Source: Acidobacteriota bacterium
GTDB lineage: Bacteria; Acidobacteriota; Terriglobia; Terriglobales; Acidobacteriaceae
NCBI GenBank assembly: GCA_003010405.1
Contig: PJLO01000008.1
Coordinates: 62,001-126,000 of the forward strand
Reading direction: 5' to 3'
DNA: 64,000 nucleotides
Of the stretch, positions 8,433 through 27,822 are shown in pieces. The notes beneath the pieces are model-generated. The model had not been told where the DNA came from. It saw nothing but the letters and a program-made list of their open reading frames with translations, and made no database searches. Within the stretch, counting starts at the first letter, position 1; each line of letters opens with the position of its first letter. The position numbers were made by a program, and so were the translations under genes.

Positions 8433-8675
8433 GAGCGCTCCTTACGGAAGTGATGTCTCCGGGAGACGGAGGCTGAGCTGGAAGTGTAGCGCAAGCAGAC
8501 GGGGCGCAGCGCTGATATTCATAAAGAATGCAAAGATTCGAGTTTTCGATTAATCGAGCTCTGGCCTGTTTCAAAAGAGCTAATATCACGGGGAAGAAAA
8601 AGGTTGCCGAAGTAGCGTAGCTCGCCGTCGACACCTCTGCTCTTCATTCATACATTCCAAGGAGGAGGTGCATGC

Positions 8676-8870
8676 ATGACGGAGTCCCATGCGCGGAAAG
8701 ACGAAAACGTGGAACAAAAGCCAGCGGCAGCTTCCGAGAAAGAGAGCCGCTTCCACCGCCATGTCAAAGTGATCATTGCGCGTGTTCTCGCAAAACAGCG
8801 CGCGGATACTAAAAAAAGGCCTATTCAATACCTGGATATTGAAAACGAGGGTACGGAACCGTGGCACTAA
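8676..8870 (+). CDS. Small hydrophilic hypothetical protein
   Basis: Product of 64 residues, highly charged (ESRFHRHVKVIIARVLAKQ), without Cys or membrane segment. A very strong ribosome site aaggaggagg lies 8 bases before the ATG, which supports it being real. It precedes the Mth938-like gene by 27 bases in the same direction and may be co-transcribed. Not recognised. Confidence 0.55.
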   Translation: MTESHARKDENVEQKPAAASEKESRFHRHVKVIIARVLAKQRADTKKRPIQYLDIENEGTEPWH

Positions 8871-8897
8871 GCTGCCAGTCCCAGTGGAAAACGTTTT

Positions 8898-9245
8898 ATG
8901 AAATTTGAAGAGTTTTCATTCGGCCGATTGCGGATCGATGGCACCGATTACGAGTACGACGTGGTGATCGACCGCGGAAAGATCAGCAGGCGCAAGAAGA
9001 AAGCGTCAAAGAAGTATCGCGAGTCGTTTGGGCACACGCCACTTTCGCTGGAGGAAGACATACCCTGGAAATGCCGCCATCTGGTCATTGGAACAGGTGA
9101 GGGCGCACTGCCCGTGATGAATGAGGTAAAGCGCGAAGCCAAACGGCGCAAGATTGAACTACTGGTTCTGCCGACGGAAAAAGCGATTGAAATACTGAAC
9201 AAGCTGCCGGAAGATACAAACGCAATTTTGCATGTTACCTGCTGA
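8898..9245 (+). CDS. Mth938-like domain protein
   Basis: Protein of 115 residues of the Mth938/NDUFAF3-like fold (DUF498). It carries LRIDGTDYEYDVVID at the front, HLVIGTGEGALPV in the middle and LLVLPTEKAIEILN near the end, the usual layout. Eukaryotic relatives help assemble respiratory complex I; the bacterial role is undefined. A terminator follows. Confidence 0.8.
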   Translation: MKFEEFSFGRLRIDGTDYEYDVVIDRGKISRRKKKASKKYRESFGHTPLSLEEDIPWKCRHLVIGTGEGALPVMNEVKREAKRRKIELLVLPTEKAIEILNKLPEDTNAILHVTC

Positions 9246-9256
9246 GTCAGGAGTTG

Positions 9257-9303
9257 GGCCACCCGCGCGGGATGAGGTTCGCGAGGGTGGCCTTTCTGTT
9301 TTT
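9257..9303 (+). terminator. Rho-independent terminator
   Basis: GGCCACCC / GGGTGGCC stem over a GC-rich loop, then tttctgtttttt. Confidence 0.75.
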
Positions 9304-9358
9304 TGGAAAGGCTTTGGAAAGATCGCAAAGACCCAAGCCGGATGCTACGGCCAGACGT

Positions 9359-11473
9359 CTACAGAGCGGCGGCGGCTTGTTTGCGCTGGCGCGATTGGAT
9401 CTCTATGTAGATGTTCAGGAGCGAGACGGCAGCGGGAGTTACACCGGGGAGTCTCGATGCCTGGCCAATGGTTTGTGGACGCAGGCGGGTTAGCTTCTCC
9501 TTCATCTCGCGGGAGAGGCCGCTGATGGTGGAGTAGTCGAACCACGCAGGAATGGTCTTGGTTTCGGCTTTCTTGAGGCGCTCGATGGCCTTCTCCTGTT
9601 GCTGGAGGTAACCTGCGTACTTTACTTCGGTTTCAACGGATTTCAATTCAACCCAGATTGCGGAAGGGAGCTGGGAGCCACATTGGCAGGAGGCAGGCAG
9701 ATCTGCGGGGGCCTCGTCTTGCTCGTTGTTTTCGTTTTGTCCAAATTCCAGTTCCCCACTCAAGCCAGAAGAGGGCTTGAATGGGCCACCCGCCCGTGAG
9801 GCCGCTTCGGGGGATGTTTGATCCCACATCTGCTGACTGCGGCAGATGTGGGGCACGATGCCGTCATGGGAGAAGAACTCGGGGGCGAGCTGGCGGCAGA
9901 TGGGGACCAGGTCTTCGATGGTGATTTCGGGGCGGCGCAGGAGTTGAGCCCAGGTTGATCCGGATACGCCGCTGATTTTTTCAGCCAGTCCGGGGGGGAG
10001 ATCGGCTCCGGCGCGCTGGGTTTCAAGCTGGCGGCGCAGGTGCTCCATGCGGCGCTGCTTGGCCTCGTAGTTCGCCCATGCTTCGTCGCTGATGAGGCCG
10101 ACGCGGCGGCCATAGGGAGTGAGGCGGCGGTCGGCGTTGTCGATGCGCAGGTGAAGGCGGAATTCGGCGCGCGAAGTGAACATGCGATAGGGTTCGACGG
10201 TTCCCTTGCTGATGAGGTCGTCGATGAGTATGGCGGTGTAGGCTTCGCTGCGGTTGAGGGTCAGGGGCGGCTCGCCTTTGATGGCCAGGGCTGCATTGAT
10301 TCCGGCCATCAGGCCCTGGCAGGCGGCTTCCTCGTAACCGCTGGTGCCGTTGATCTGTCCGGCAAGATAGAGGCCGCGAATTTTGCGGGTCTGGAGAGTG
10401 CGCTCCAGCTCGGTGGGATCGATGGAGTCGTATTCGATGGCGTAGCCGGGCCGGAGCATTTCGGCGCGCTCAAGGCCTGGGATAGAAGCGAGCATCGCAA
10501 ACTGAACATCGACGGGGAGCGAAGTGGCCATGCCGTTGATGTAGACCTCATGCGTGCTGGTGCCTTCTGGTTCAAGATAGAGCTGGTGGGTTTCCTTGTC
10601 GGGAAACTTCACGATCTTATCTTCAATCGAAGGGCAGTAGCGCGGGCCGATGGAGCGGATCTGACCGCTGTACATGGGCGAGCGATGAACATTCTCGCGA
10701 ATGATGCGATGGGTTTCAGGCGTGGTGAAGGCGATGTAGCAGCTGACCTGGGGCTGCGTGATGTTGAGGGTGCGGAAGCTGAAGGGCGTGGGATCGGCGT
10801 CGCCGGGCTGTTGCTTGAACCGTGACCAGTCAATGCTGCGGCCATCGAGGCGCGGAGGGGTTCCGGTCTTGAGGCGGCAATGGCGGAGGCCGAGCTCTTT
10901 GAGGTTTTCGCCAAGAAGAATGGAGGCAGGCTCGCCGTTGCGTCCGGCGGTATAGGTCTGCTCGCCACAGTGAACGACCCCGTTGAGGAAGGTTCCTGTG
11001 GTGACGACAATGGCTCGAGCCGAGACATTACGTCCATCGCGCAGCCGGAGGCCCTCCACGCGGCGATTGTCGCCCTCGCCCGCGATGATCAGCTCGGCGA
11101 CTTCGGCTTGCTTGACCTGAAGGTTGGGCTCGCTTTCCAGGACCTCGCGCATTTTTACGCGGTACTTTTGCTTGTCGCACTGAGCGCGGGGCGACCAGAC
11201 GGCAGGGCCGCGGGAGGTGTTCAGGAGACGGAACTGGATGCCTACGGCATCGGTGACCTCTGCCATGATGCCGCCGAGAGCGTCGATCTCGCGAACTATA
11301 TGTCCCTTGGCGATTCCGCCCACGGCGGGGTTGCAGCTCATCTGCGCGATGAGATCGGCGTTAAGTGTGTAAAGAGCGGTGCGCAGCCCCATGCGCGCGG
11401 CGGCCATGGCCGCTTCGCAACCGGCATGACCGGCTCCGACGACGGCAACCTCGAAGTGTTCGGAAAAGCTCAT
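9359..11473 (-). CDS. mnmG: tRNA uridine 5-carboxymethylaminomethyl modification enzyme MnmG
   Basis: FAD-dependent GidA/MnmG that works with MnmE to modify the wobble uridine of tRNAs. 704 residues, longer than the usual roughly 620-640. The FAD motif [12 protein letters not shown] is at residues 10-21, with [45 protein letters not shown] and the C-terminal SGLSREM.EKL and [18 protein letters not shown]. The extra length is about 70 residues between APEFFSHD and [11 protein letters not shown] and is partly encoded by a hairpin repeat at 9823-9852. The frame stays open and catalytic motifs are intact, so it is probably functional. Confidence 0.95.
9823..9852. repeat. REP-like hairpin inside mnmG
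   Basis: CCCACATCTGC, 8-base loop, GCAGATGTGGG, within the mnmG coding sequence (residues about 541-551). The same arms occur between genes at 11611-11640. Confidence 0.8.
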
Positions 11474-14424: not shown

Positions 14425-14576
14425 GACGAAATGAGAGGTTGGGCGTTTTCTAAATGTTGCCTCAGGGTTCCTTGGCGGCATAGTGTCTGATGTGCGGACG
14501 ACTAGGCAAAAAAAACGGATGCAGCGAATCCTTTTTTGTCCAGCAGCCTCTTTCAAAGTAGAGGGGGCAATAATTC

Positions 14577-15134
14577 ATGAGCACGATGATTTCGGTTGCA
14601 GCTTTGAGTAGCGAAATAGCCAGCGGAAAGCATCCGCAGATGATCGATGTGCGCTCGCCTTCCGAGTACGCGGGCGGACATATTCCGTGTACCATCAGCG
14701 TTCCGATGGATCAGTTCGAGGCCCGGAAAAAGGATTTGCGGCTGGAAGACGGAGTTGTACTGGTTTGCAAAGCTGGCAGCCGGGCGCAGATTGTGGCCGG
14801 ATGGCTGGGCTCGGATACCCCGGTGCGGGTACTGGAAGGCGGGACAGACGCCTGGATTCGCGCAGGGCTTGATGTTGTGGTTTCGGCGAAGACGCGCTGG
14901 TCGCTGGAACGGCAGGTGAGGTTGATAGCGGGCGCACTGGTGCTGATGGCCGCGGCGCTGGCAATCTCCGGCTTCCAGTGGGCAATCTGGGTAGCGCTGT
15001 TGATGGGCGTGGGCCTGACGTTTGCGGGCCTGACCGACATCTGTCCAATGGCGATTCTGCTGACCAAAATGCCATGGAACCAGGCGCGGACGAAAGGAGA
15101 CAGCAAAGTTCAGAACGCGTGTTGCGGGAGATAG
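14577..15134 (+). CDS. Rhodanese / DUF2892 membrane protein
   Basis: Protein of 185 residues with a rhodanese domain (IDVRSPSEYAGGHI, active-site loop VCKAGSRA with the catalytic Cys, LEGGTDAW) followed by two membrane segments (about residues 118-155), like the YgaP family. Such proteins handle sulfane sulfur at the inner membrane face. It is the first of three same-direction genes with an ECF sigma factor and an OsmC-like protein. Confidence 0.87.
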   Translation: MSTMISVAALSSEIASGKHPQMIDVRSPSEYAGGHIPCTISVPMDQFEARKKDLRLEDGVVLVCKAGSRAQIVAGWLGSDTPVRVLEGGTDAWIRAGLDVVVSAKTRWSLERQVRLIAGALVLMAAALAISGFQWAIWVALLMGVGLTFAGLTDICPMAILLTKMPWNQARTKGDSKVQNACCGR

Positions 15135-15176
15135 CGACACAGCTTGAGGAATGCGTTTTGGGCGAAAATCCCCGGC

Positions 15177-15701
15177 ATGGAATTTGAAAAGCTCGCCAAC
15201 GAACACAAGGACGCGGTGTACCGCCAGATGCTGCGGGTTTGCGGGAATCATGCGGATGCCGAAGACGTGCTGATGGAAGCTTTGCTGAAGGCTTATAGCA
15301 GCTTGGGGCAGTTGCGCGAAGCCACAGCGTTTCGGGCGTGGCTGGCGCAGATTGCGCGGAGACTGTGCTGGCAGTTGCGGGAACGCGAGGCGATGGCGCC
15401 ACTGCTGCAGCTTTCCGCAATGGAAGAGGAAGGAACGGAGCTGGCGTCTGATAGTGAGGCGCTTGATGTGGAACTGGCGCGACGAGAGATGAAGACCCTG
15501 CTGTGGCGGGCAGTTGATGAACTGCCGCAGGATGCGCGTGAAATGTATCTGCTGCGCGACGTTCAGGGGATAAGCGGCGAGGAAGTGGCAAGAAAATTTG
15601 GCATTACTGTGTCGGCTATGAAGAGCCGGCTGCACAGGGCACGAAAAACGGTGCGCGAACGGCTGGACCAGATTCTGTCGGCTGGCGCGGGACAGAGATA
15701 A
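15177..15701 (+). CDS. ECF-type RNA polymerase sigma factor
   Basis: Sigma-70 family protein of about 174 residues. Region 2 covers DAVYRQMLRVCGNHADAEDVLMEAL with FRAWLAQIARR, and region 4 covers LPQDAREMYLLRDVQGISGEEVARKFGITVSAMKSRLHRARKTV. An in-frame TTG at 15144 is an alternative start; the ribosome site is weak for both. No anti-sigma gene is adjacent; it sits between a rhodanese and an OsmC gene, suggesting control of a thiol or peroxide response, by inference. Confidence 0.85.
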   Translation: MEFEKLANEHKDAVYRQMLRVCGNHADAEDVLMEALLKAYSSLGQLREATAFRAWLAQIARRLCWQLREREAMAPLLQLSAMEEEGTELASDSEALDVELARREMKTLLWRAVDELPQDAREMYLLRDVQGISGEEVARKFGITVSAMKSRLHRARKTVRERLDQILSAGAGQR

Positions 15702-15714
15702 GGAGGAGATAACC

Positions 15715-16122
15715 ATGGTGGAAGTCTCGGTAGAACATCTGGGGTCTGTGCAATTTGAAATCAAAGCGCGTGGTTATTCGATCCTTTGCGATCAACCGGC
15801 GGGAAATGGTGGCTTTGACGAAGGAATGATCCAGCCGGAACTGCTGCTGGCATCACTGGGTTCGTGCGCGGGATATTTCGTGGCGGATTACCTGAAGCGG
15901 CAGAAACTGGCGACAGAGGGGACGAAGATTCACGTGACGGCGGAAAAAGTTAAGAATCCTTTTCGGCTGGATAATTTCAGAATCGAAGTAGAAGTGCCTG
16001 CTGGATTGAGCGAGGAACACCTGAAGGGCGTACGCGAGGCGGTGCATCACTGCCTGATTCATAACACGCTGATGAATCCGCCGAAGATCGATTTGGAGGT
16101 CGGCACGGGCGTTATCCGGTAA
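15715..16122 (+). CDS. OsmC family protein
   Basis: OsmC/Ohr-fold protein of 135 residues; family members reduce organic hydroperoxides with two cysteines. The two Cys are at LGSCAGYF (about residue 51) and HHCLIHNTL (about residue 111). A very strong ribosome site aaggaggag precedes the ATG. Overall sequence is of the general OsmC rather than the Ohr type. Follows the sigma factor by 13 bases. Confidence 0.87.
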   Translation: MVEVSVEHLGSVQFEIKARGYSILCDQPAGNGGFDEGMIQPELLLASLGSCAGYFVADYLKRQKLATEGTKIHVTAEKVKNPFRLDNFRIEVEVPAGLSEEHLKGVREAVHHCLIHNTLMNPPKIDLEVGTGVIR

Positions 16123-16330
16123 GGCGCTGCCCGCTTCGGAAGGAAGAAGCAAACGGACACCGCCCTGCCACAGCCTCACCTCGTGCCGCAGGGCGGCACA
16201 TTTGCCAGCGAGCAGGGCAGATATGAGTCTGCGCATGGCAAAAATTATTTTCCGCCAGAAAATCTGAGCCAAATCGCGAATACGCGCCAGCGTATGTTGC
16301 TGTAAAAGACGACAGATAGATCATAGTGAG

Positions 16331-16360
16331 GTATGTCAGCTGGTATATCAGCTGACATAC
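16331..16360. promoter_or_regulatory. Strong palindromic operator candidate
   Basis: GTATGTCAGCTG, 6 bases, CAGCTGACATAC: a perfect 12-bp inverted repeat. It ends 29 bases before the -35 box of the promoter at 16390 and is not followed by a T-run, so a protein-binding site is likelier than a terminator. The remainder of 16123-16330 shows no gene. Confidence 0.6.
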
Positions 16361-16389
16361 GTAAGTCATGTATTGTCAAATACTTACCC

Positions 16390-16418
16390 TTGACGCGCAT
16401 TTTCTTTTCTGGCATTCT
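16390..16418 (+). promoter_or_regulatory. Sigma70-like promoter
   Basis: TTGACG (16390-16395), 17-base spacer, CATTCT (16413-16418). The leader contains a perfect 11-bp hairpin GGGCAGGAGTG / CACTCCTGCCC at 16479-16503. Confidence 0.5.
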
Positions 16419-16533
16419 TCCCTTGTGACTGCATTGCAATGAGTTTGCTGTAATGCCTTGGTGATTCTGCCAGGGCGTGGGCAGGAGTGCTGCACTCCTG
16501 CCCGCTCCTATCTCCATAGAAAGGGAAGATGAA

Positions 16534-16794
16534 ATGGACCTAATGCAAGTAATTGATCCGGTGGCGTTCGAGGAATGGATCAGCAGACGTTTTGCTGGCG
16601 ATGGGGCGCTGAATGGCCTGAATGGCGGAAGCGAAAGCATCACCTTGCAGCGGTTGATGGCGAATGCAGTAACCGATCCTCAGGTAACAATTCTGTCCCG
16701 CGCCGTTGCCGAAACGGGTGTCGATGAAACGCACGCGAGGATGACAATCGCTCTCATGCAAGCGTTCCTTCAGACCAGCGCATCAGCGCATTGA
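16534..16794 (+). CDS. Small hypothetical protein
   Basis: Product of 86 residues, starting MDLMQVIDPVAFEEW after the ribosome site aagggaag. Mostly helical by composition (LQRLMANAVTDPQVTIL, ARMTIALMQAFLQ); no Cys, no membrane segment. Not recognised. It is the first gene after the palindrome and promoter and lies 51 bases before the DUF6884-like gene. Confidence 0.55.
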   Translation: MDLMQVIDPVAFEEWISRRFAGDGALNGLNGGSESITLQRLMANAVTDPQVTILSRAVAETGVDETHARMTIALMQAFLQTSASAH

Positions 16795-16845
16795 GCATAA
16801 GAACAGGAAGTTTGCTTAAGAGATTAGGCCCGAGGGGCGGTCCAA

Positions 16846-17244
16846 ATGCGAATATATCTAACACATTGCTGCAAGAAGAAGGCCCCGGAATTTAGGGGCA
16901 CCGGCCTGACAGTACGACCGGACATTTTGTACACGGCTACTCCCACACAACGATTTATGCAACGATGTGTCCAAAGCGGCAAGGAATGGGCGATTTTGTC
17001 TGATCTATATGGGGTTTGGTTCCCCGATGTGGAACATGAATGGTACGAGAAGGACCCCAACACTGTTACGGAAAGAGAGTTTGCATCACTTCGCAGTGAT
17101 TTAGAGACTGCACTGGCACGCTATGCAGAGATCATGTTCTACCACAATCCTGGTCGATTCCATCCACTCTATGGACGGCTACTGGCTGAGAATAGCCTTG
17201 CCGGGAGAGTAAAGCTCATTTCGCATCTGCGGGATATTCAATGA
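16846..17244 (+). CDS. DUF6884-like protein
   Basis: Protein of 132 residues beginning MRIYLTHCCKKK, with DILYTATPTQRFMQRC, WAILSDLYGVWFPDVEHEWYEKDP and FYHNPGRFHPLYGRLL. The pattern matches the DUF6884 family, distantly like YaaA-type proteins; no biochemical role is established that I know of. Ribosome site gaggggcgg. Its stop overlaps the start of the next gene (ATGA). Confidence 0.7.
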   Translation: MRIYLTHCCKKKAPEFRGTGLTVRPDILYTATPTQRFMQRCVQSGKEWAILSDLYGVWFPDVEHEWYEKDPNTVTEREFASLRSDLETALARYAEIMFYHNPGRFHPLYGRLLAENSLAGRVKLISHLRDIQ

Positions 17245-17936
17245 ACGCGTCAACCGATGATCTTTGCGCTTGGGTACACACCCAGATTGAACGCAGACCC
17301 CTTATTTCCTATCCGTTCAAGCTGGACTCCTTACCGAAGAACGGAATCTATTTCTTCTACGAGAACGGAGAGGCCCAGAATCACGCGGCGTCAGAACTAC
17401 CAAGAATTGTGAGGGTAGGAACACACAAAGACGGGAATTTCCGGTCCAGAATAGCAGAGCATTTTCTCCTAGACGAACACAAGATGGCTTTCGATGCAGA
17501 TAAACCAGCCCCGCACGAGCGCAGTATTTTCAGAAAACACATCGGAAGAGCGTTGCTAGAGCGCGAGAAGGACGCGTACTTGAAGGTGTGGGAACTGGAT
17601 TTCACCACGAGGGCGACCCGGGACTTGTATCGGCATTTAAGGGACATTCGGATTGAAACAGAAATTGAATTAGAGGTAACTCGGATTCTGCGCGATACTT
17701 TTACGTTCCGGTACATCGAAATCCCAGGCGAGAAGGACCGGATGGGGGGAGATGGTTTAGAGAAAGCACTGATCGGTACTCTTGCCCAATGCGCCTGTTG
17801 CACCTCAAGCCCAAGCTGGCTGGGGAGGCACTCGCCTAAGCCGAAAATCTCTACTGGCCATCTTTGGCTAATTCAACACCTGAAGGCTCATCCGCTGACC
17901 CAGCAGCAACTTCAGGCCATTTTAGCTGCGATCTGA
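17241..17936 (+). CDS. GIY-YIG nuclease-like protein
   Basis: Protein of 231 residues. The N-terminal half has NGIYFFYENGE (residues 34-44, the GIY strand), RIVRVGTHKDGNFRSRIAEHF (55-75, the YIG strand with Arg and His) and a later GLEKALIGTLAQC (172-184) that supplies the catalytic-type Glu. These are the elements of a GIY-YIG nuclease, although the strand motifs are divergent (RVGTH for YIG). The C-terminal part has a short Cys cluster (CACC). Coupled to the DUF6884-like gene by a 4-base overlap. Confidence 0.68.
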   Translation: MNASTDDLCAWVHTQIERRPLISYPFKLDSLPKNGIYFFYENGEAQNHAASELPRIVRVGTHKDGNFRSRIAEHFLLDEHKMAFDADKPAPHERSIFRKHIGRALLEREKDAYLKVWELDFTTRATRDLYRHLRDIRIETEIELEVTRILRDTFTFRYIEIPGEKDRMGGDGLEKALIGTLAQCACCTSSPSWLGRHSPKPKISTGHLWLIQHLKAHPLTQQQLQAILAAI

Positions 17937-18073
17937 AACCTTCCAAGTTTGCGGTCGCGGTTAACCTTGAATAGATATAGATCTAAACGGGGGGTTAGAT
18001 CTTGTACGCAGGAAGACTTTTGTCGCTTATTATCGCGCATAAACGAGACCGGACGGGTATTCGGCAAGATCAG

Positions 18074-18100
18074 CGGCAGCCGTTGATGGCTGCCGTTTTC
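18074..18100 (+). terminator. Rho-independent terminator
   Basis: CGGCAGCC / GGCTGCCG, 6-base loop, then ttttc. Otherwise 17937-18455 shows no gene. Confidence 0.7.
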
Positions 18101-18455
18101 GTTGTGTGCCGTTAGAGTAAACGCGACCAGGACTACCTATCGCGCAGTCAATCGTGGCCGAGGAGTTCGCCAGTCTGCCGGGTGCGCCTGTAAGACACAG
18201 AAAAGAAATACGGTTCTAAGTTCCAGAGATTAGATAATTATCGTAAGCGCTGTCTCTAATAGCACGTTACAACCCGCGCGTCCCGCATTTTCGTGGTGCA
18301 CTGGCCTAGTGTTTTCCCGTTTTGGAATGCAATGCCAAATAAGTTGGCCACTCCAGCTACTCAGGCTGCATCGAAAAGCAGAGTACCTGCTAACATAGCG
18401 CCTCCAATTGTTCATTTGTTTGTTCATTGTTCGAGTTCCGATCAGGAGAGTCTGT

Positions 18456-20702
18456 GTGAAGAGATTCGCGAAGTTACTGCCCATTGCTCTAATTTTCGTT
18501 GTCTTTGCCGGGCTCGCCGGCTGTGGAGGTAGCTCGAAAAAAGCCACCCCGGTACCCGCGACATTATCGACGATCACCGTTGGCGCCGGCGCATCCACGG
18601 TCAACCTGGGGCAGACGCTCAATATGACAGCGATTGCCACTTATAGTGACAAGACCACGTCGAATGTCACCACATCCGCCACGTGGCAGACGTCCGATCC
18701 CACGATTGCGATCATAGACAGCAAAGGCCTGCTGTCTGCCGCTGGACCAAATACGGGAACCATTACGGTAACGGCAACAGTAGGAAACACGTCTGGTTTC
18801 ATGGACATTAAAGTGCAGACCTCCGGGTCGTCTCCCGGGGCGGCGACTCTAACCCAGATCGTGGTAACACCAGTTAATCCTCTTGATTCTCCCACCTCCG
18901 TTGCCAAGGGACAGACACAGCAGTTTGCAGCCAGCGGTATTTATTCAGACGGCAGCCAGGCTGACCTTACGAGGGGAGTTGTCTGGAGCACTGGCGACAG
19001 CAGCATCGCCACTATTACTCAGACCGGGAACGCCACGGGAATCGGCATTGGATCGACAACGGTTATTGCAACCCTCGGCTCGATTTCCGGTTCTGCTCCG
19101 CTATCGGTAAGTTCCGCATCGCTTTCGTCAATCAGCATTGCGTGCGACCCGGTGAATCTGACTATTGAAATAAACGGCCAGGCGACGTTTAGCGTGACCG
19201 GAATCTACAGCGACGGCACCGCGCAGGACTTGACGGCAGTCGCTACCTATTCATCGGCGGATTCGACAATCGCGGCCTTCAAATCCCCGGCGCCGAACGC
19301 CAATGTGGCAGCCGGCGTAGCGGCGGGTACGGTTAACATCTCAGCAAAGGTGGGTACGTTGTCGGACACTGAGACGCTGACCGTGCTTCCGGCAACGTTG
19401 ACTGCTCTCAGCATCACGCCGGAAACAGCATCAATCGCAAAGGGCACGACTCAGCAGTTCAGCTTGACTGGTATTTACAGCGATGGCAGCTCTGGACCGT
19501 TAACCGGAGGCGTGAGCTGGAGTTCTTCGGCTCCTTCCATTGCGCTTATCGATCAGACCACTGGCTTGGCCCAGGGAATTGCGGCCAGTGCCACTCCTGT
19601 CACCATCCAGGCCCAGTATGGCGGACTCTCAGCGACAGCAGAGTTGACGGTTAGGGCGGCAACTTTGTCTTCGATTCTGGTTACCCCGGCCATGCCTACG
19701 GTCGGGATGGGAGGCTCGGTACAGTTCACAGCTTCCGGCGTATTCAGCGATAACACTACGCAGGACCTGTCATCAGTGGTCCAATGGAGTTCGTCCGCGC
19801 CCAGTGTCGCCAGCATCAACAGCGTCGGCGTGGCCAGCGTTTCCACCAGCGCCACACCCGGTCAGACCACGGTAATTACTGCGCAGTATCTGGGCGTAAG
19901 CGGATTGACTACCCTCACCGCCGCTCGCGTCACACTCACGGGGATCAATGTGCTCCCTGCCTCTCCGGTTGTGCCGACACGCAGCAGAGTCCAGTTCACT
20001 GCCATGGGCGTATACAGCGATGGCAGCACGGCTCCGCTCAGTGGCGTGAGGTGGACTACCTCCAGTCCAAGCAGAGCGATGATTAACCGGCAGGGATTAG
20101 CCCGCACCAAGTGGCGAACCGGCGCGGTGGTAGTGTGCGCGAGGTTTAGAGGCATCACAGGCTCGACGACGATGACAATCACGTCTTCTACTTTGACGTC
20201 GGTGACGATTTCGCCTGTCAACCCGACAATTGCAGTTGGCACAACGCAGCAGTTTGCGTTGACTGGGACCTACGGTGACGGCACGACGATAGACGTAACG
20301 CCGGGAGCATACTGGACCACTTCCAACTGGAGAGACGTGGTTGTCGGCAGATATGGATTGGTCTTCGGCAGGGCGGTGGGGCAGGCCACGATCACAGCGA
20401 ACTATAAATCGTTGAGCGATCAAACCTTGATGACCGTCTCAGCTGCCACTCTCACCGGTATCACGGTTAATCCGCCGACTCCGACCGTTGTACTTGGCGG
20501 AGTGCAGCAATTCACGGCCACTGGAAGCTTCAGCGACGGCAGCACGCAAGACATCACGTCGCTGGTTCAATGGAGTTCGTCGGCTCCGACAACTGCGGTT
20601 GTAAACAAGCTCGGCGTGGCTTCAAGCACCTCGATCGGCTCGGCAACAATCAGCGCAACCTTTAAGGGACAAACGGGAACCGCGGTTCTGAACGTGAACT
20701 AG
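18456..20702 (+). CDS. BIG2 repeat lipoprotein
   Basis: Secreted lipoprotein of 748 residues made of eight bacterial Ig-like (BIG2) repeats of about 85-90 residues. The start is GTG at 18456 with AGGAG 7 bases upstream; the frame is open to 18408. The signal peptide ends in a lipobox (AGLAGC). Each repeat has the pattern L..I.V.P, V..G...QF.A.G.YSDGS, W.SS.P..A.I and a closing strand. The repeats diverge in the sixth and seventh (RTKWRTGAVVVCARF, SNWRDVVVGRYG). Such proteins are cell-surface adhesion or scaffold modules. Confidence 0.88.
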   Translation: MKRFAKLLPIALIFVVFAGLAGCGGSSKKATPVPATLSTITVGAGASTVNLGQTLNMTAIATYSDKTTSNVTTSATWQTSDPTIAIIDSKGLLSAAGPNTGTITVTATVGNTSGFMDIKVQTSGSSPGAATLTQIVVTPVNPLDSPTSVAKGQTQQFAASGIYSDGSQADLTRGVVWSTGDSSIATITQTGNATGIGIGSTTVIATLGSISGSAPLSVSSASLSSISIACDPVNLTIEINGQATFSVTGIYSDGTAQDLTAVATYSSADSTIAAFKSPAPNANVAAGVAAGTVNISAKVGTLSDTETLTVLPATLTALSITPETASIAKGTTQQFSLTGIYSDGSSGPLTGGVSWSSSAPSIALIDQTTGLAQGIAASATPVTIQAQYGGLSATAELTVRAATLSSILVTPAMPTVGMGGSVQFTASGVFSDNTTQDLSSVVQWSSSAPSVASINSVGVASVSTSATPGQTTVITAQYLGVSGLTTLTAARVTLTGINVLPASPVVPTRSRVQFTAMGVYSDGSTAPLSGVRWTTSSPSRAMINRQGLARTKWRTGAVVVCARFRGITGSTTMTITSSTLTSVTISPVNPTIAVGTTQQFALTGTYGDGTTIDVTPGAYWTTSNWRDVVVGRYGLVFGRAVGQATITANYKSLSDQTLMTVSAATLTGITVNPPTPTVVLGGVQQFTATGSFSDGSTQDITSLVQWSSSAPTTAVVNKLGVASSTSIGSATISATFKGQTGTAVLNVN

Positions 20703-20724
20703 GCTCCTGAGGTTTCGACCACTT

Positions 20725-20752
20725 GGCCCTCACTTTTGGTGGGGGCCTTTTC
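20725..20752 (+). terminator. Rho-independent terminator
   Basis: GGCCCTCAC / GTGGGGGCC with a short T-rich loop, followed by tttt. Confidence 0.7.
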
Positions 20753-20835
20753 TTTCAAACAAAATGTGTCGTTGCAAACTTTAGGGACGAGCAGCTTTGG
20801 AAAGGGGTATCATCTTTGGCCAGTGAGGTGGTCCT

Positions 20836-21282
20836 ATGCCGCTTGCCGAGTCGGTTCGTTCAATTCTGAAACAGAAAGGCGGAGTCGTTCATTCCATCTC
20901 TCCGTCCGATACGGTTTACGAAGCCATCGCAATGATGGCTGAAAAGCAGGTAGGCGCGCTGGTTGTGATCTTTGAAGGCGAGATTGCGGGCATTGTTTCG
21001 GAACGCGACTACGCGCGTAAGGTGATTCTGAAGGGGCGATCTTCGAAAGAAACCACCGTCTCGGAGATCATGAGCTCCCCAGTGATTTTTGTCTCTCCAG
21101 AACATACCGTCGGCGAATGCATGAAGATCATGACAGAGCATCGCTTTCGACATCTGCCGGTATTGGAGCAAGACCGGATCGTTGGCGTAATCTCGATCCG
21201 CGATCTTGTGAACTGGATTCTTTCGGAGCAAACGGAAACCATTCGCCACCTGGAGGCCTACATTACTGGCAGGCCATCCTGA
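20836..21282 (+). CDS. CBS-domain protein
   Basis: Protein of 148 residues made of two CBS domains and nothing else. Domain 1 runs from about VHSISPSDTVYEAIAMM to IVSERDYARKVIL, domain 2 from MSSPVIFVSPEHTVGECM to VGVISIRDLVNWIL. CBS pairs bind adenine nucleotides and act as energy sensors; the partner is not evident here. Confidence 0.87.
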   Translation: MPLAESVRSILKQKGGVVHSISPSDTVYEAIAMMAEKQVGALVVIFEGEIAGIVSERDYARKVILKGRSSKETTVSEIMSSPVIFVSPEHTVGECMKIMTEHRFRHLPVLEQDRIVGVISIRDLVNWILSEQTETIRHLEAYITGRPS

Positions 21283-21324
21283 CTAATGCTTTTTATTGCA
21301 AAGTGGCGGGGTGCGCCGAAAATG

Positions 21325-21792
21325 TTAGGAGAGCAGGTCGAGAACCTCGGAGAGTTTTTGGCGAATTCTCCGCAAGTCTTCTTTGTCTCCGGTTCCGTTT
21401 ACGGGAAACGGCGTAGTCGATTGCGCCTGATCGACAGGTTGCCCAGCATATTCGACTGAATCAGAAGGCGGGGCCGCATTCAGAAGCTGATCCGATGATC
21501 TGCCTGAGCGCGTCTCTTCGCGAAGTTTTTCGCGAGCACCGGCGATCGTGAAGCCATCTTCGTAAAGCAGCTTGCGAATCTGTATTACATACTCCACGTC
21601 CTTGCGGCGGTACATCCGCTGCCCTGAACTGCTTTTGCCGGGCTTCAGTTGCGGAAACTCCGTCTCCCAGAAGCGGAGAACGTAGGTCGGCAGGTCTGCT
21701 AACTGGCTCACTTCACCGATGCGAAAATAAAGCTTCTCCGGAATCACTACATCCGCGAGCGCCTTGGCGTGTTTGCGTTTGGCTGTAGGCAT
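21325..21792 (-). CDS. MerR-family transcriptional regulator
   Basis: Protein of 155 residues with a MerR-type winged helix-turn-helix (YFRIGEVSQLADLPTYVLRFWETEFPQL, then RMYRRKDVEYVIQIRKLLYEDGFTIAGAREKL). The C-terminal third is low-complexity and short, without a recognisable ligand domain or Cys motif, so the inducer cannot be guessed. Confidence 0.85.
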   Translation of the reverse strand: MPTAKRKHAKALADVVIPEKLYFRIGEVSQLADLPTYVLRFWETEFPQLKPGKSSSGQRMYRRKDVEYVIQIRKLLYEDGFTIAGAREKLREETRSGRSSDQLLNAAPPSDSVEYAGQPVDQAQSTTPFPVNGTGDKEDLRRIRQKLSEVLDLLS

Positions 21793-21869
21793 CGTAAAAG
21801 AACTCTATTTAGCCGTTCTTGTCTTGTAACACGAGTATGGCGTCCCATCAAAGTGGCCCGCGCACAAAT

Positions 21870-22050
21870 AAAAAGTCTCCGCGGGCAGCGCGGAGACTGG
21901 CGACAGAGAAATCGAGGTCTAGCCACCTCACAGGTCCAGTACCGCGTGCAATTTATACGTACCGCGGCGCTAGATTGGACCCCTCTCCCTTGAAGATACT
22001 CGCAAAAGATCTGCTAATCCTGCCTACATGTTGGATGCAATCAAGTGCTA
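21870..22050 (-). ncRNA. Candidate small RNA upstream of the MerR gene
   Basis: On the minus strand TTGACA (22086-22081) and CAAAAT (22063-22058) are spaced by 17 bases. About 150 bases further a strong terminator AGTCTCCGCG / CGCGGAGACT ends in TTTTTATTT (21898-21868). Inside, GGTCCA/TGGACC and CCGCG/CGCGG arms can pair. No ORF of note is present. This is a prediction from promoter, fold and terminator only; a long leader or cryptic transcript is possible. Confidence 0.35.
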
Positions 22051-22279
22051 GTCCAAGATTTTGTTGCTAGTTACTCTGATTGTCAATAGATTTTTGTCGT
22101 TTCTTGCTTGACGAGCCACCTGAAGCTTATCAATCTTCTTAGTTCCTGCCGCGATTGCCTCACTGATCCGAATCCGGAATCGAGATGGCGATGAAAGTAT
22201 CTTCGCCGCGTGTTCTGCGAGCGGTGCTAAACTGCTGGGCTCGGACGTTTTACGCTGGCTCTTCTGGGAGGCGAACGCC

Positions 22280-23341
22280 ATGCCGAACCTAATGTCGGCG
22301 GTAATGAAGAGTAAGCCGGCAGCGGGGATCGAAATCCGCGAAGTTCCCATCCCTGCCGTTGGCCTCACCGATGTCCTTGTTAAGGTGAAGGTCGCCTCTA
22401 TTTGCGGTACGGATCTGCACATCTACAACTGGGACCCGTGGGCGCAGGGACGCATCACTCCTCCGCTCATCCCCGGACACGAATTCTGCGGATACGTCGA
22501 GGCCATCGGTGACGAGGTCACGAATGTAAAAGAGGGCGACTTTGTTTCGGCGGAAATGCACGTCGCCTGCGGCAAGTGCCTGCAGTGCCGCACCGGGCAG
22601 GGGCACATCTGCCAGAATGTGAAAATTATCGGCATCGACCGGAACGGAGCATTCGCCGATTATGTCGTAATTCCCGAGTCGAACATCTGGAAGCTAGATC
22701 CCGCGATCCCGCACGAATACGCATCGATCCTCGATCCGCTTGGAAATGCGTTTCACACGGTGCTCTCAGGCGATGTAGCGGCCAAAAACATCGCAATTAC
22801 CGGATGCGGCCCCATCGGACTGTTCGCTATCGCCGTGGCGCGTGCCTGCGGAGCGGCCCAGGTCTTTGCCATCGAGGTCAACGAATATCGCCGCAACATT
22901 GCACGGCAGATGAAGGCCGACTTCGTGCTTGACCCCGCGAGCGAGGACGTGCGCGCCATCATTCGCGATCACACGAACGGCTATGGCGTCGACGTGCTGC
23001 TGGAAATGGCCGGACACAAGGACGCGGTGAGACTCGGCTTTGATATCTTGCGCACCGGTGGCCGTGTGAGTCTGCTCGGAATCCCTTCGCGTCCCATGGA
23101 ACTGGATCTTGCGCGCGACATCATATTCAAAGGCGCAACTGTGTTCGGCATCAATGGACGCAGGATGTTCGAGACCTGGTATCAGATGACCGCGCTGCTC
23201 AAGGCGGGAAAGCTCGAACTGCATCCGGTGATCTCGAACCGCTTGCCGCTTTCCGATTTCAGCAAGAGCATGGACCTGCTGAATTCCGGCAAGGCCTCGA
23301 AAATTCTGCTTTACACCGACGGTGTCGACAGCACGTTCTGA
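22280..23341 (+). CDS. tdh: L-threonine 3-dehydrogenase
   Basis: Zinc- and NAD-dependent enzyme that oxidises threonine to 2-amino-3-ketobutyrate. 353 residues; catalytic zinc motif SICGTDLHIYNWDPWAQ, GHEFCGYV, structural zinc loop CGKCLQCRTGQGHIC, Rossmann motif ITGCGPIGLFA, and ILDPLGNAFHT, all characteristic of TDH. It sits 10 bases before kbl, so the two form a threonine-to-glycine operon. Start context gggaggcgaacgccATG. Confidence 0.95.
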   Translation: MPNLMSAVMKSKPAAGIEIREVPIPAVGLTDVLVKVKVASICGTDLHIYNWDPWAQGRITPPLIPGHEFCGYVEAIGDEVTNVKEGDFVSAEMHVACGKCLQCRTGQGHICQNVKIIGIDRNGAFADYVVIPESNIWKLDPAIPHEYASILDPLGNAFHTVLSGDVAAKNIAITGCGPIGLFAIAVARACGAAQVFAIEVNEYRRNIARQMKADFVLDPASEDVRAIIRDHTNGYGVDVLLEMAGHKDAVRLGFDILRTGGRVSLLGIPSRPMELDLARDIIFKGATVFGINGRRMFETWYQMTALLKAGKLELHPVISNRLPLSDFSKSMDLLNSGKASKILLYTDGVDSTF

Positions 23342-23351
23342 AGGGAGTCTC

Positions 23352-24563
23352 ATGGCCATGGCTCGCATCAACCCCCTCGCATTCCTCTCCGATGAATTGA
23401 ACACGCTGAAGGAGCAAGGCACCTATTTCAAATTGCGCGTGCTGGATGACGAGCAGGCTCCGGTTTGTCACTTTGACGGACGCAAGGTGATTAACCTCGC
23501 CTCCAACAACTATCTCGGGCTTACCACTCACCCCAAGCTTCGCGAGGCCGCGCTGGAGGCCACGCGCAAGTACGGAGTGGGCTCCGGCGCCGTGCGGACC
23601 ATTGCCGGGACCATGAAGCTTCACATGGAGTTGGAAGAAAAAATTGCGCGCTTCAAGGGCGTGGAGGCATGCGTCGTCTTTCAGTCCGGCTTTACGGCCA
23701 ACGCCGGAACCGTATCGGCGATCCTCGGTAAAGACGACTACATCATCAGCGATGAGTTGAATCATGCGTCCATCATCGATGGCTGCCGCCTGTCGCGCGC
23801 AAAGATTCTGGTCTTCCGCCACAAGGACGTGGCACACGCGGAAGAGCAACTCGCCAGCGTTGCCAATCTTCCGGGGAAAAAGCTTCTGATCAGCGATGGC
23901 GTCTTCTCGATGGACGGCGACATCGGTCCGCTGCCGGGGCTTTGCGCTGCAGCGGAAAAGTATGGGGCAATCATGATGGTCGACGACGCGCACGCCTCCG
24001 GGGTTCTGGGGCGCAATGGACGCGGCACTATCGACCACTTCGGAGTGCACGGGCGCGTTGACATCCAGGTGGGCACGCTTTCGAAGGCAATCGGCGCACT
24101 CGGCGGATACGTCTGCGGCACGCGCGACTTCATCGAATACCTATACCACCGCGCACGGCCGTTCCTGTTCTCCACCTCGCATCCGCCATCGGTCGCTGCC
24201 ACCTGCATTGCGGCGTTTGATGTGCTGGAGAACGAGCCGGAATTGATTGAGCGCCTGTGGTCAAACACCCGCTTCTTCAAAAAAGAACTGGGACTGCTTG
24301 GCTTCAACATTGGCGGTGTCACCACGCCAGCCAGCGAAACTCCGATCACGCCCATCATTATCGGCGATGGACGCGCCACGATGGACTTCAGCAAGGCGCT
24401 CTTTGAACAGGGAGTCATGGGAACAGGCATCGCCTTCCCAACTGTTCCAGAGGGCAAGGCACGGGTACGAACCATCGTCACGGCAACGCATACGGAGGCT
24501 GAACTCAGTCAGGCGCTCGAAATCCTGGGCAGAGTTGGGAAAAGCATGGGGCTGATCGGGTAG
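23352..24563 (+). CDS. kbl: Glycine C-acetyltransferase (2-amino-3-ketobutyrate CoA ligase)
   Basis: PLP enzyme that cleaves 2-amino-3-ketobutyrate with CoA to glycine and acetyl-CoA. 403 residues from ATG at 23352, 6 bases after gggag; the frame is open further up but that overlaps tdh. Motifs: NNYLGLTTHPKL, GSGAVRTIAGT, DELNHASIIDG, VDDAHASGVLG and the PLP-lysine loop TLSKAIGALGGYVCG. Confidence 0.95.
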   Translation: MAMARINPLAFLSDELNTLKEQGTYFKLRVLDDEQAPVCHFDGRKVINLASNNYLGLTTHPKLREAALEATRKYGVGSGAVRTIAGTMKLHMELEEKIARFKGVEACVVFQSGFTANAGTVSAILGKDDYIISDELNHASIIDGCRLSRAKILVFRHKDVAHAEEQLASVANLPGKKLLISDGVFSMDGDIGPLPGLCAAAEKYGAIMMVDDAHASGVLGRNGRGTIDHFGVHGRVDIQVGTLSKAIGALGGYVCGTRDFIEYLYHRARPFLFSTSHPPSVAATCIAAFDVLENEPELIERLWSNTRFFKKELGLLGFNIGGVTTPASETPITPIIIGDGRATMDFSKALFEQGVMGTGIAFPTVPEGKARVRTIVTATHTEAELSQALEILGRVGKSMGLIG

Positions 24564-24643
24564 GGAATAACAGCGTTCCTAGTGACCGGAGGCACCTGAG
24601 AGCTATAATAATTTCGCTTCCCAACTTCAACAAATCTGCGAGG

Positions 24644-25123
24644 TTGACGCCCTTGGCCCGTCATCTGTTTGCGGGATTTAGCGGAATTGTAGTGGCAGTT
24701 GCTATTCCAATTGTGGTAATGGCGGTTTCCTATCGTCTGACTGATAAAAGCACGCACTACACGTTTGAACCTCGCGGGCAGGGAAGCTTTGAGCCCAGAC
24801 TTGCCAACTATGTCGGGTTCGCTCAGTACATCATTGGATTAGCAACGGGGTCTTTGGCGCTTGCGGCGGGTTCATCCATTCTTAAGAGTTCGGGAGTACT
24901 TCATTGGCGTTTTGCATCACCGCTGACGTTACTGGGTGCGAGCGTGATTTATGGTGTGTGCTTTATCGCGTTAATCAATTACTTCTACGAAGGATTTTTG
25001 CATGACGCCCACAGCTACAAACAATTCCGTTACAACCTAAACAATACTTTTGGTTTTTCGTGCTTGCTATCATTTGCCATCGGATACATGTGGCTTGCGG
25101 TCATCATCACAAAGAGCAGCTAA
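24644..25123 (+). CDS. Hypothetical multi-pass membrane protein
   Basis: Product of 159 residues with four predicted membrane helices (GIVVAVAIPIVVMAVSY, YIIGLATGSLALAAG, LLGASVIYGVCFIALI, LLSFAIGYMWLAVII). The first start in frame is TTG at 24644 preceded by gcgagg; a TTG at 24653 is also possible. A TATAAT lies at 24604. AT-richer than its neighbours by eye. Not recognised. Confidence 0.6.
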   Translation: MTPLARHLFAGFSGIVVAVAIPIVVMAVSYRLTDKSTHYTFEPRGQGSFEPRLANYVGFAQYIIGLATGSLALAAGSSILKSSGVLHWRFASPLTLLGASVIYGVCFIALINYFYEGFLHDAHSYKQFRYNLNNTFGFSCLLSFAIGYMWLAVIITKSS

Positions 25124-25152
25124 TACAAGAGTTGCAGAACCGCAACCCGGCG

Positions 25153-25539
25153 TTAATACTCCTCTCTGTCTACATACAGCAGCTCATTCTCTCCGTAGGT
25201 GTCCAAATTTCCATCTTTGTTGCGCTTGCTACCACAGATAAGGTCGTAACCATTAACGTCCCTACTGGTGAAGAGTTCGCACTCAACCGTCATACCCACG
25301 TGTAGCTCACAATGTTGAGTTACGTTTGGATTTTCGACTCCCTTGATGTTGTTACATCTTGCGTAGTATTTGTGCCCGTCATGTTCGAGCACCACGGGTA
25401 CTTCAAACACGAGACTGCTCTCGCTATTTGTGCGCCCGACAACCTTGTAGCGGGCGTGTCGTTTGTGGCGTTCGTATGCAACCAGTGATAACAACATCAT
25501 GAGCACGCATACCACAATCAACACTTCTCGTCTTTTCAT
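25153..25539 (-). CDS. Hypothetical membrane-anchored protein
   Basis: Product of about 128 residues from the ATG at 25539 (MKRREVLIVV); the frame extends to 25599. One N-terminal membrane helix (VLIVVCVLMMLLSLVAY) is followed by a Lys/Arg-rich stretch and a soluble beta-rich domain with four Cys (YARCNN, QHCELH, VECELF, LICGS). Topology suggests a periplasmic or outer-leaflet domain. Convergent with the preceding membrane-protein gene. Not recognised. Confidence 0.5.
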   Translation of the reverse strand: MKRREVLIVVCVLMMLLSLVAYERHKRHARYKVVGRTNSESSLVFEVPVVLEHDGHKYYARCNNIKGVENPNVTQHCELHVGMTVECELFTSRDVNGYDLICGSKRNKDGNLDTYGENELLYVDREEY

Positions 25540-25758
25540 GCCGACCAACCGTCGCATTAAAATACTTGGCGCAATATCATATCGTTCCAATGAACTCACC
25601 GGGACAGCTCGCTAGGACGTGGAACATCTTACAATCCACGAAGCAATTGCGAAAGAGTGACCTTGAATCCATTGGCTTAGAAGTAACAACCCGCACGGAC
25701 GCACCGGGAAGGGTCCGTTGCGGCTGCCCTTTCGTATTTTTGCGGAGGATCTCGGGGG

Positions 25759-27717
25759 CTATTCTTTGGCGAGTTCTGCGAGCAGTTCTTTGCCATACTT
25801 CTCAGCGCGCTTCGGCCCCATGCCTTTGATCTCCAGCAATTCGCGCATAGTACGTGGCCGTGTCCGCGCAATCTCAAGCAGGGTCGCGTCTTGCAGCACA
25901 CAGTAGGGAGGCCAGTGGTTTTTGCGAGCGATATCCAGCCGGAGGGTGCGCAGTCGCTCGAAGCGGGCCTCTACCGCACGCCCGTGCATAGCTCCCACCT
26001 TGCCGCCAGCAACTTCCTTGGCCGCGGCGACTTTTGCCCGCGTGGTGCGCTCCCCGCTCTTGTTCGGAGCTTCGCGCGATATCGTCGCTGCGATTCGGGA
26101 GACCCTCGCTTCCGAGGAAGGCTGGTCTGAGTGCTTCGGCCCGGCATTCAATAGGTGCAAAATCCGCGTACCGAAGTTCTCGATGATTTTGTTGTGCACC
26201 TCGAAGTCGTCGCGTAATTCTTCAATGGATTTCGGGGGATTCTCAATCAGCCGTTGCAGCAGTTCATCGGGCAGGTGCTGAAAAAACATCGTTCCCAGCG
26301 AGCGTACGGCATCGCGGCGAAGGTCCTTCAGGCGTGCCAGCCGCGCGTCATCAGGAGACAGCACCACGGGACCAACCGCGCGCTCCATGATCTCCGCGCG
26401 AGAGTTTTGCAACGTGCCGCTGGAATGCGTTGCGGCCTCAGCGGCGACCGCCGCAGCTCGACTGCTCATCTTTATCGCGGGCCTGCCGGCGCGGCAGACG
26501 TCGCAGTTGCAGTCTTGCGGAACCTTGTCTTCGCCGAAGTATTCCAGAATCTGACGGCGGCGGCAGCGCTCCCAGCGGGCGTAGTTCTGCATGGCGTTCA
26601 GTTGTTTTTCACCCCGCTTCTGCAGCGCTGCAATGTCCCGGCGCGTCAACTGACCGTTGGTGTCGCCAATCTTTTCGATAAAGAATTTCTGCATCATTAC
26701 ATCGGCGGGAGCGAAGTACAAAATGCAATCAGCGGGCAGACCATCGCGTCCTGCGCGTCCGGCCTCCTGGTAGTAGGCTTCCAGGCTGCCGGGCAGGTTG
26801 TAGTGGATCACGTAGCGCAGATTCGGCTTGTTGATGCCCATGCCAAAGGCGTTGGTCGCAACCACGATGGCATTTTCATGATCCACAAAGCGGCCCTGAT
26901 TGCTGCTGCGCGCCTCCTGATCCATGCCAGCGTGATAAGCCACTACTACGCGTCCACGCAACTTGCTTCTGAGAAGCGATGTAACCTCCTCCACGTGTTT
27001 GCGGGTGGAACAGTACACGATGCCGCCGGATTTCTTATGCGAGAGATAGTCGAGAAGTTCATCCTGTTTGTTCTTTGCTTTGGCAAAGACAACTGACTGA
27101 TAGCTGAGGTTGGGGCGGTCGAAGCCGGTGACGTGGATCGCCGGATTCTTGAGCCGGAGGTTGCTCACGACATCGGCACGAACCTCAGGCGTTGCCGTGG
27201 CGGTCAGTGCAATGGTCAGCGGCTCGCCCAGTTGCTCGCGCACCTCGCCGAGGCGCAGGTATTCCGGACGGAAGTCATGGCCCCACTGGCTGATGCAGTG
27301 CGCCTCGTCGATGGCCAGCAGCGACAACTTGCGCTGCGTGATGATGGAGAGAAAACCGGGGGCGCTGAATCGCTCGGGGGCGACGTAGAGCAGGCCGCGG
27401 AATCCATCGCGCAGTTTTGCCATGACTGCGCGCTGCTCATCCCAGGTTTGTCCGCTGCACAACATCATGGCGGGAATCCGCAGTGCGCGCAATTGGCGCA
27501 CCTGGTCGGTCATCAGCGATATCAGCGGGGAGATGATCAGCGTGAGCCCGCGCAGCGAAACGGCGGGCAATTGATAACACAGGCTCTTGCCCGCGCCCGT
27601 CGGCATTACAACCAGCGCATCGCGGCCCGCGAGCACGTCATTCACTATTTCGCGCTGCTGGGAGCGAAATTCCTTTAGACCGAAAATAGAGGCCAGAATG
27701 GTGTCGGCATCACGCAT
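25759..27717 (-). CDS. recQ: ATP-dependent DNA helicase RecQ
   Basis: Superfamily 2 3'-5' helicase acting in recombination and fork repair. 652 residues: Walker A MPTGAGKS (about 38-45), DEAHCISQWGHDFRPEY (motif II), ALTATATPEV (III), ATNAFGMGINKP, QEAGRAGRDG (VI), the RecQ zinc site with Cys near CRRRQILEYF and CNCDVC, a winged-helix region and a C-terminal HRDC-like domain (about 570-650). The linker before HRDC is Ala/Lys/Arg-rich and low complexity. Confidence 0.93.
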   Translation of the reverse strand: MRDADTILASIFGLKEFRSQQREIVNDVLAGRDALVVMPTGAGKSLCYQLPAVSLRGLTLIISPLISLMTDQVRQLRALRIPAMMLCSGQTWDEQRAVMAKLRDGFRGLLYVAPERFSAPGFLSIITQRKLSLLAIDEAHCISQWGHDFRPEYLRLGEVREQLGEPLTIALTATATPEVRADVVSNLRLKNPAIHVTGFDRPNLSYQSVVFAKAKNKQDELLDYLSHKKSGGIVYCSTRKHVEEVTSLLRSKLRGRVVVAYHAGMDQEARSSNQGRFVDHENAIVVATNAFGMGINKPNLRYVIHYNLPGSLEAYYQEAGRAGRDGLPADCILYFAPADVMMQKFFIEKIGDTNGQLTRRDIAALQKRGEKQLNAMQNYARWERCRRRQILEYFGEDKVPQDCNCDVCRAGRPAIKMSSRAAAVAAEAATHSSGTLQNSRAEIMERAVGPVVLSPDDARLARLKDLRRDAVRSLGTMFFQHLPDELLQRLIENPPKSIEELRDDFEVHNKIIENFGTRILHLLNAGPKHSDQPSSEARVSRIAATISREAPNKSGERTTRAKVAAAKEVAGGKVGAMHGRAVEARFERLRTLRLDIARKNHWPPYCVLQDATLLEIARTRPRTMRELLEIKGMGPKRAEKYGKELLAELAKE

Positions 27718-27822
27718 GGCAGGGAAAAATTAGCTCCGATAGTAAACGCCCGCTTTAATGCCTGTTGCTAACAGCCAATTGAAGCTGGTCTTTCGTTATT
27801 GCTCGCGCGGGAACGCGTCGGT

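Follow-up and report, generated by a model that had tools for sequence, protein, structure and literature searches.

The locus and its genomic setting

The window, the whole 64,000-nucleotide stretch of Acidobacteriota DNA that was analysed, is part of contig C44 of a 3.64 Mb genome. It contains a compact island in which two overlapping genes, here called A and B, follow a palindrome, a second inverted repeat and a small ORF. In window positions, the features are as follows.

15715-16122: OsmC-like gene (PF02566 match), left neighbour of the island
16331-16360, strand not applicable: palindrome upstream of the module, with 15-nt arms (16331-16345 and 16346-16360) that are 93% complementary
16474-16508, strand not applicable: second inverted repeat, with 17-nt arms (88%), directly ahead of the small ORF
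16534-16794, plus strand: small ORF of 86 aa, an open frame and an orphan
16846-17244, plus strand: gene A, 132 aa, divergent DUF6884/YaaA-like
17241-17936, plus strand: gene B, 231 aa, GIY-YIG-like, PADLOC PDC-M57B family
17241-17244, plus strand: ATGA start-stop overlap coupling the stop of A to the start of B
18072-18097, plus strand: terminator-like hairpin downstream of B
From about 18408: long repeat protein, right neighbour of the island

Genes A and B are both open frames, and the 4-nt ATGA overlap bears out the coupling described in an earlier note on this DNA. Both genes (G+C 0.489 for A and 0.510 for B) are poorer in G+C than a set of 40 long ORFs from the window (mean 0.560, sd 0.040), a mild sign of foreign origin. 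At the DNA level, three congeners (G396, G397 and G398) had no match to A-B. In these congeners the OsmC gene adjoins purE or purD, whereas purE lies approximately 18 kb further on in the window genome; A-B therefore occupies a rearranged place, an inversion or rearrangement breakpoint. Across 15715-34765 the order is OsmC, A-B, the repeat protein and CBS, continuing to purE. Judged by eye, the locus lies outside any recognisable defence island. There was no Rfam match within 14500-20000 and no tRNA within the window.

The palindrome reported in the earlier note is present. As RNA it folds with -21.2 kcal/mol (z -4.1), and none of 200 shuffles folds equally well. It occurs as a single copy in the genome (allowing up to three mismatches), and in nine other loci the sequences ahead of A hold only scattered, chance-like palindromes. 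The operator role that had been proposed is thus not supported. Similarly, the proposed promoter was not recovered: a scan of 16100-18300 gave two sigma-70-like sites where 1.8 were expected, which is not above chance, and both lie on the minus strand. The second inverted repeat and the terminator-like hairpin had not been part of that note. Its small gene of unknown function does have an open frame, but relatives were found in none of 99 other genomes searched, and no Pfam family matched even at E 10. As relatives were not found, the 86-aa ORF was dropped as a third member, and it probably lies outside the A-B system.

Gene A: a divergent DUF6884/YaaA-like protein

PF21818 (DUF6884) is the sole Pfam match of A (E 1e-4), with a score of 22.9 bits that falls below the gathering cut-off of 30 bits. 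The earlier assignment of A as DUF6884-like is upheld by this match, though below cut-off. Protein A is 52% identical to its relative in genome G022 and 50% identical to that in G224. In profile-profile comparison, A and its relatives matched a profile of 13 DUF6884 proteins over residues 2-90 (probability 89.4, E 2e-6).

The Pfam authors, in the accessible text of PMC11701544, describe DUF6884 as a distant YaaA relative with CxxxK and LSAxxG motifs; the same text shows a base-flipping model for DUF6884 and cites YfjM as a lesion interactor. The CxxxK motif is kept in A as C8/K12. Residues 51-56 of A read LSDLYG where DUF6884 has LSAxxG, such that L, S and G are kept. The alanine is replaced by D in all three members of the window's A subfamily, and A is without the conserved C-terminal part of DUF6884.

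A model of A predicted from ten sequences has a pLDDT of 73.5, with residues 109-132 falling below 50. Its best match is Escherichia coli YaaA (5caj; Z 6.2, 96 aligned residues, rmsd 3.2), the only chain at Z>=5 among the 1000 compared. A is thereby predicted, with moderate model confidence, to have a YaaA-like fold. By itself, Foldseek returned nothing significant for the model, so the fold assignment comes from the second aligner; a Foldseek comparison with viral models also lacked significant matches. A profile search with the relatives of A against solved structures returned a weak YaaA line (E 0.43). A is probably a base reader or a base-acting partner. A also matches the PADLOC 'MTase_II' model PDLC03340 weakly (window 16846-17244, E 0.0025); this model perhaps contains a DUF6884-like stretch.

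Gene B: a GIY-YIG-like protein

Two stretches of B carry the motifs discussed below.

17340-17465, plus strand: B residues 34-75, with the GIY strand, the RVG strand (YIG position) and the R70xxxH74 helix
17754-17792, plus strand: B residues 172-184, a helix (170-182 in the model) with E174 invariant in 12 of 12 proteins

Pfam gave no match for the window's B, which matches the PADLOC PDC-M57B models PDLC04713 (E 1.8e-54) and PDLC04714 (E 9.1e-22). None of 12 B proteins reached a Pfam GIY-YIG cut-off, the best hit being PF20815 at E 0.025 in two of the 12, and a profile search of B against solved structures gave no useful match. The model of B, predicted from 12 sequences, has a mean pLDDT of 87.6. 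With the second aligner, every one of the five PDB entries listed is a GIY-YIG nuclease (rmsd 3.4-4.7), and their Z-scores of 4.7-5.4 are middling by the tool's own scale; the UvrC N-domain 1yd6 and T4 EndoII 2wsh score 5.4, and R.Eco29kI scores 4.7-4.9. Plain Foldseek found no match for the model at E<=0.001. The GIY-YIG fold that the earlier note had expected is thus the one that the model of B resembles.

Across 12 aligned B proteins, residues Y37, R58, G60, R70, H74 and E174 do not vary. When residues 26-76 of B were aligned locally with the host's own UvrC, none of 2000 shuffles reached the score, and R70 aligned with the UvrC arginine. Profile-profile comparison of B with a single UvrC gave the correct motif alignment at a low probability (2.4, P 0.019). 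Residue E174 is presumed to be the metal-binding glutamate, with a catalytic role equivalent to that of the GIY-YIG glutamate. The motif of the window's B reads GIYFF...RVG, and R58 replaces the second tyrosine of YIG in all 12 B proteins. Furthermore, approximately 100 residues separate R70 from E174, and this stretch has a conserved motif of its own, RSIFRKxIG. Owing to R58 and to this spacing, B is called GIY-YIG-like and is set apart from canonical members; its nuclease activity is predicted.

Recurrence of the pair

Of 297 genomes drawn from the phylum, three carry B. An independent search with the A of G022 found matches in three of 396 genomes, and these are the three with B in the first draw. 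At class level B turned up in 12 of 399 genomes, a sporadic occurrence, and is absent from congener G397, a member of that draw. In all 14 B-bearing genomes surveyed in the phylum, B has a YaaA/DUF6884-like neighbour, which in G409 is a broken piece only, recognised by eye.

The 11 class loci other than the window differ in the kind and position of A. A DUF6884 gene lies ahead of B in three (L064, L065 and L069), and a longer DUF6884-like gene follows B in six (L068, L070, L071, L072, L073 and L074), L073 being counted on a broken piece readable by eye only. A YaaA-like gene follows B in one locus (L067) and precedes it in another (L066). Both the A-B and the B-A order thus occur, with overlapping ends. 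The longer and YaaA-like kinds match DUF6884 in profile-profile comparison with probabilities of 95.7 and 91.9; as a control, B compared with the longer kind gave 0.5. Outside the phylum, the Nitrospirae locus L003 has B with a YaaA/DUF6884-like neighbour, and 4-nt A/B overlaps recur in L003 and L018. In L012 of genome G224 (8651-9566) the A-B junction is lost, the 3' part of A and the 5' part of B being missing. AbiEii genes adjoin two of the 11 class loci, and a PLD gene matching defence models lies beside the pair in L003.

B was found on 13 viral contigs, one of which (L055) starts inside B and was left out as not assessable. A is adjacent to or fused with B in 11 of the remaining 12. Contigs L040, L053 and L059 were left out of the count as repeats of L021 and L017. 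B is identical in L041, L042 and L055 (in L055 over the part of B present), and L019 and L020 look near-identical, so the independent viral cases are fewer than the contigs. Three loci encode single-chain A-B fusions (L017, L021 and L022), with the nuclease at the C-terminal side. L057 carries B without A, and the start of B is also missing there. By eye, the pair lies between head genes of the prophage-like contigs L042, L054 and L058, and type I restriction-like genes lie beside it in L022.

One bacterial plasmid, from Deinococcus, was found with both genes, A followed by a frameshifted B. B stands without an adjoining DUF6884 gene on seven haloarchaeal plasmids; such a gene lies 2-7 kb away in six, and the stretch examined of the seventh holds none. 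A DUF6610 gene lies near B on two haloarchaeal plasmids (L005, 6640-7581; L006, 5880-6812), and HNH and ArdC-like genes are nearby in several records. On the Tolypothrix plasmid L044 (3147-4474), a gene that RefSeq names a GIY-YIG nuclease lies 8 bases ahead of a DUF6884 gene, and a NACHT NTPase comes next. It was not counted as a case of the pair, since that name was unmatched by Pfam or PADLOC.

A search of the GenBank phage collection with the window's B found no relative of B. The L021 fusion matched 35 phage records, all through its A half; among its matches (the 35 phage records and 15 of 98 plasmid records), DUF6884 neighbourhoods were examined in nine regions. The window's type of A was sought in viral contigs and not found, nor was the A of L003. 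The pairing recurs in other genomes and on viral contigs, as the earlier note's reading of a module implied. Of the regulated two- or three-gene nucleic-acid module proposed there, the two-gene core is well supported, but the third gene, the promoter and the palindrome regulation are not.

Exchange of A and the possible target base

Four kinds of A accompany B: canonical DUF6884, the window's short kind, a 225-aa kind that follows B, and a YaaA-like kind. In a tree of 27 B proteins, those of the window, G022, G224 and G473 form a clade with support 99/99. The first three have the short kind of A, and G473 has a YaaA-like gene instead. The branch of L067 is long, which leaves its own place in the tree unsure. 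That one B clade is served by two kinds of A suggests, from the sequences, a swappable reader and a conserved nuclease. Such a combination is in keeping with a nuclease that takes its target from A.

The longer and YaaA-like kinds of A match PADLOC DpdC models (best E 7e-8). DpdC hydrolyses dPreQ0 to dADG in the Dpd pathway, as described in the portion of PMC12839542 available. In Variovorax, a DUF6884 gene overlaps the DpdB gene. In Halorubrum tailed virus 29 (L047, 5007-6132), a DUF6884 gene annotated 'peroxide stress protein YaaA' shares a few bases with DpdA; this overlap suggests that it has a DpdC-like function there.

L021/L040 is the only pair locus with an adjacent 7-deazaguanine gene, a QueC gene just upstream. 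As a single locus, it was not accepted as proof of a 7-deazaguanine target. On the phage-like contig L040 (4701-8701), QueC, the DUF6884-B fusion, a SIR2-like/AAA gene and a nucleoside 2-deoxyribosyltransferase-like gene stand in a row, possibly a larger defence or base-modification cassette. From the DpdC matches, the overlaps with DpdA and DpdB and the QueC locus, 7-deazaguanine derivatives are our best guess for the target of at least some members. These are links of the family, none of which ties in the window's A.

Proposed function and alternatives

Our preferred reading, a tentative one given a little less than an even chance, is that A and B form a two-subunit, modification-dependent (type IV-like) DNA restriction nuclease, its cutting and its role in defence being predicted. 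A, with its YaaA/DUF6884 fold and DpdC relationship, would recognise an altered DNA base, probably by flipping it into a pocket, and may also act chemically on that base. B would be recruited by A and would cut the DNA nearby. Cells and temperate phages that carry the pair would thereby destroy incoming modified-base DNA, and the reader could be exchanged while the nuclease is kept. Modification-dependent cutting is suggested by the architecture of the pair, and CMoRE shows that a GIY-YIG nuclease with a modified-base sensor can be a type IV defence. Base reading by A, DNA cutting by B, the defence outcome and the target base are all things that we infer.

The recurrent pairing and fusions, the two gene orders, the exchange of A kinds and the family links of A were counted in favour of this restriction nuclease, as were sporadic occurrence, carriage as prophage cargo, the AbiEii neighbours and the PADLOC candidate labels of both families. 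Counted against it were R58, the sub-cut-off Pfam scores, the middling Z-scores, the haloarchaeal non-adjacency, L057, the lack of a defence island and the single QueC locus. The PDC label is itself a prediction, and this too was counted against.

A might instead be a base-processing enzyme (a glycosylase or hydrolase), with B incising at its product as in base-excision restriction. DpdC, a profile relative, acts enzymatically on a DNA base (in the available text of PMC12839542), base-excision restriction is described in PMC10273834, and A keeps both CxxxK and LSxxxG. The D in place of the LSA alanine and the missing C-terminal part in the window's A argue the other way, and we regard an enzymatic A of this kind as unlikely. 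Somewhat less probable still is a housekeeping DNA repair pair, in which A would bind lesions such as abasic sites or oxidised bases and B would incise. YaaA belongs to the oxidative stress response, YfjM has been detected together with abasic and RNA-base lesions (both from the accessible text of PMC11701544), and the pair comes after an OsmC-like gene. A housekeeping role sits poorly with the sporadic distribution of B across the class, with A-B DNA unmatched in three congeners and B absent from G397, and with carriage within the structural regions of prophages as well as on a plasmid.

The remaining alternatives appear improbable. A toxin-antitoxin pair, with B as a toxic nuclease and A as its antitoxin, would suit two small overlapping genes with AbiEii genes beside some class loci, but three single-chain fusions and the origin of A in a base-acting fold family leave it little room. 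Marginally less probable is action on RNA, for example tRNA. Enzymes of 7-deazaguanine also exist for tRNA, and the present results fit DNA or RNA alike; against this, DUF6884 relatives adjoin DpdA and DpdB, which work on DNA, and the structures nearest to the model of B are DNA nucleases. Free-standing homing nucleases are common among GIY-YIG enzymes, and a selfish or homing cassette would agree with the position of the pair between phage head genes and, in the window genome, at the breakpoint of a rearrangement. Its constant partner of a base-acting fold and its several unrelated genomic positions, with no intron or intein seen, make a homing cassette the least credible of these explanations.

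Wider significance

Phages evade restriction by base replacement, 7-deazaguanines included. To our knowledge, few host nucleases that attack base-replaced phage DNA have been described. A compact pair with a swappable reader would offer a direct test of host counter-attack on modified phage DNA. It would also supply a role for DUF6884, a large uncharacterised family, and might lead to tools for cutting DNA at rare bases. It is conceivable, though we think it doubtful, that the window represents one branch of a general class of modular restriction nucleases made of two parts, in which a single GIY-YIG-like cutter works with exchangeable YaaA/DpdC-fold readers and each pair targets a different hypermodified phage base, 7-deazaguanine derivatives included. 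If this is true, DUF6884 would gain a defence function, and DpdC-like enzymes would appear in a new light, as readers enlisted for attack.

Comparison with known systems

According to the predicted model, B shares a common fold with R.Eco29kI, the UvrC N-domain and T4 EndoII, and the RxxxH spacing of B is that of R.Eco29kI. B differs from all three in its stretch of approximately 100 residues between R70 and E174, with the motif RSIFRKxIG, and in the R that replaces the second tyrosine. The resemblance to the Dpd system lies in A, as DpdC and relatives of A are placed in one family in the accessible part of PMC11888242. Unlike in that system, the partner in the pair is a nuclease-like protein, and DpdA and DpdB were not noted beside the pair.

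CMoRE (PD-T4-3) is a single-chain type IV restriction enzyme for 5hmC/5ghmC that combines a GIY-YIG nuclease with a modified-base sensor (PMC12923530). The pair likewise joins a GIY-YIG-like nuclease to a base-sensing part, the sensing here being predicted. In CMoRE, as far as the available text of that source describes it, the nuclease is N-terminal in the one chain, the sensor is without known homologues and the motif is GIYxY-YIG. The window's pair has two genes, a YaaA-fold partner and GIYFF...RVG, and the fusions found elsewhere have a C-terminal nuclease.

The closest counterpart in composition is PADLOC PDC-M57 (PDLC04712 for A; PDLC04713/04714 for B), a candidate phage defence of the same two genes. 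PDCs are described in the accessible text of PMC12988326 as putative candidates from guilt-by-embedding, mostly unvalidated. Among the papers searched, none names PDC-M57 and none combines YaaA, GIY-YIG and phage. The earlier note's view that no system of this composition had been described is mistaken on one point, as PADLOC-DB pairs both families as PDC-M57. PDC-M57A corresponds to the DUF6884 family, with the L003 protein scoring E 1.5e-58 and 4e-47 against the two. The window's B belongs to the same family as PDC-M57B and the pair is adjacent, whereas the window's A has no PDC-M57A match at E<=1. The A of G022 also has no match at E<=1, and that of G224, from the same subfamily, reaches E 1.3e-4. 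Loci in the B-A order and those with other kinds of A lie at the edge of or outside the PDC-M57A model. The present PADLOC A-gene model thus misses or barely detects several natural forms of the pair. In this comparison the window's pair is a divergent form of the catalogued defence candidate PDC-M57, for which defence is predicted.
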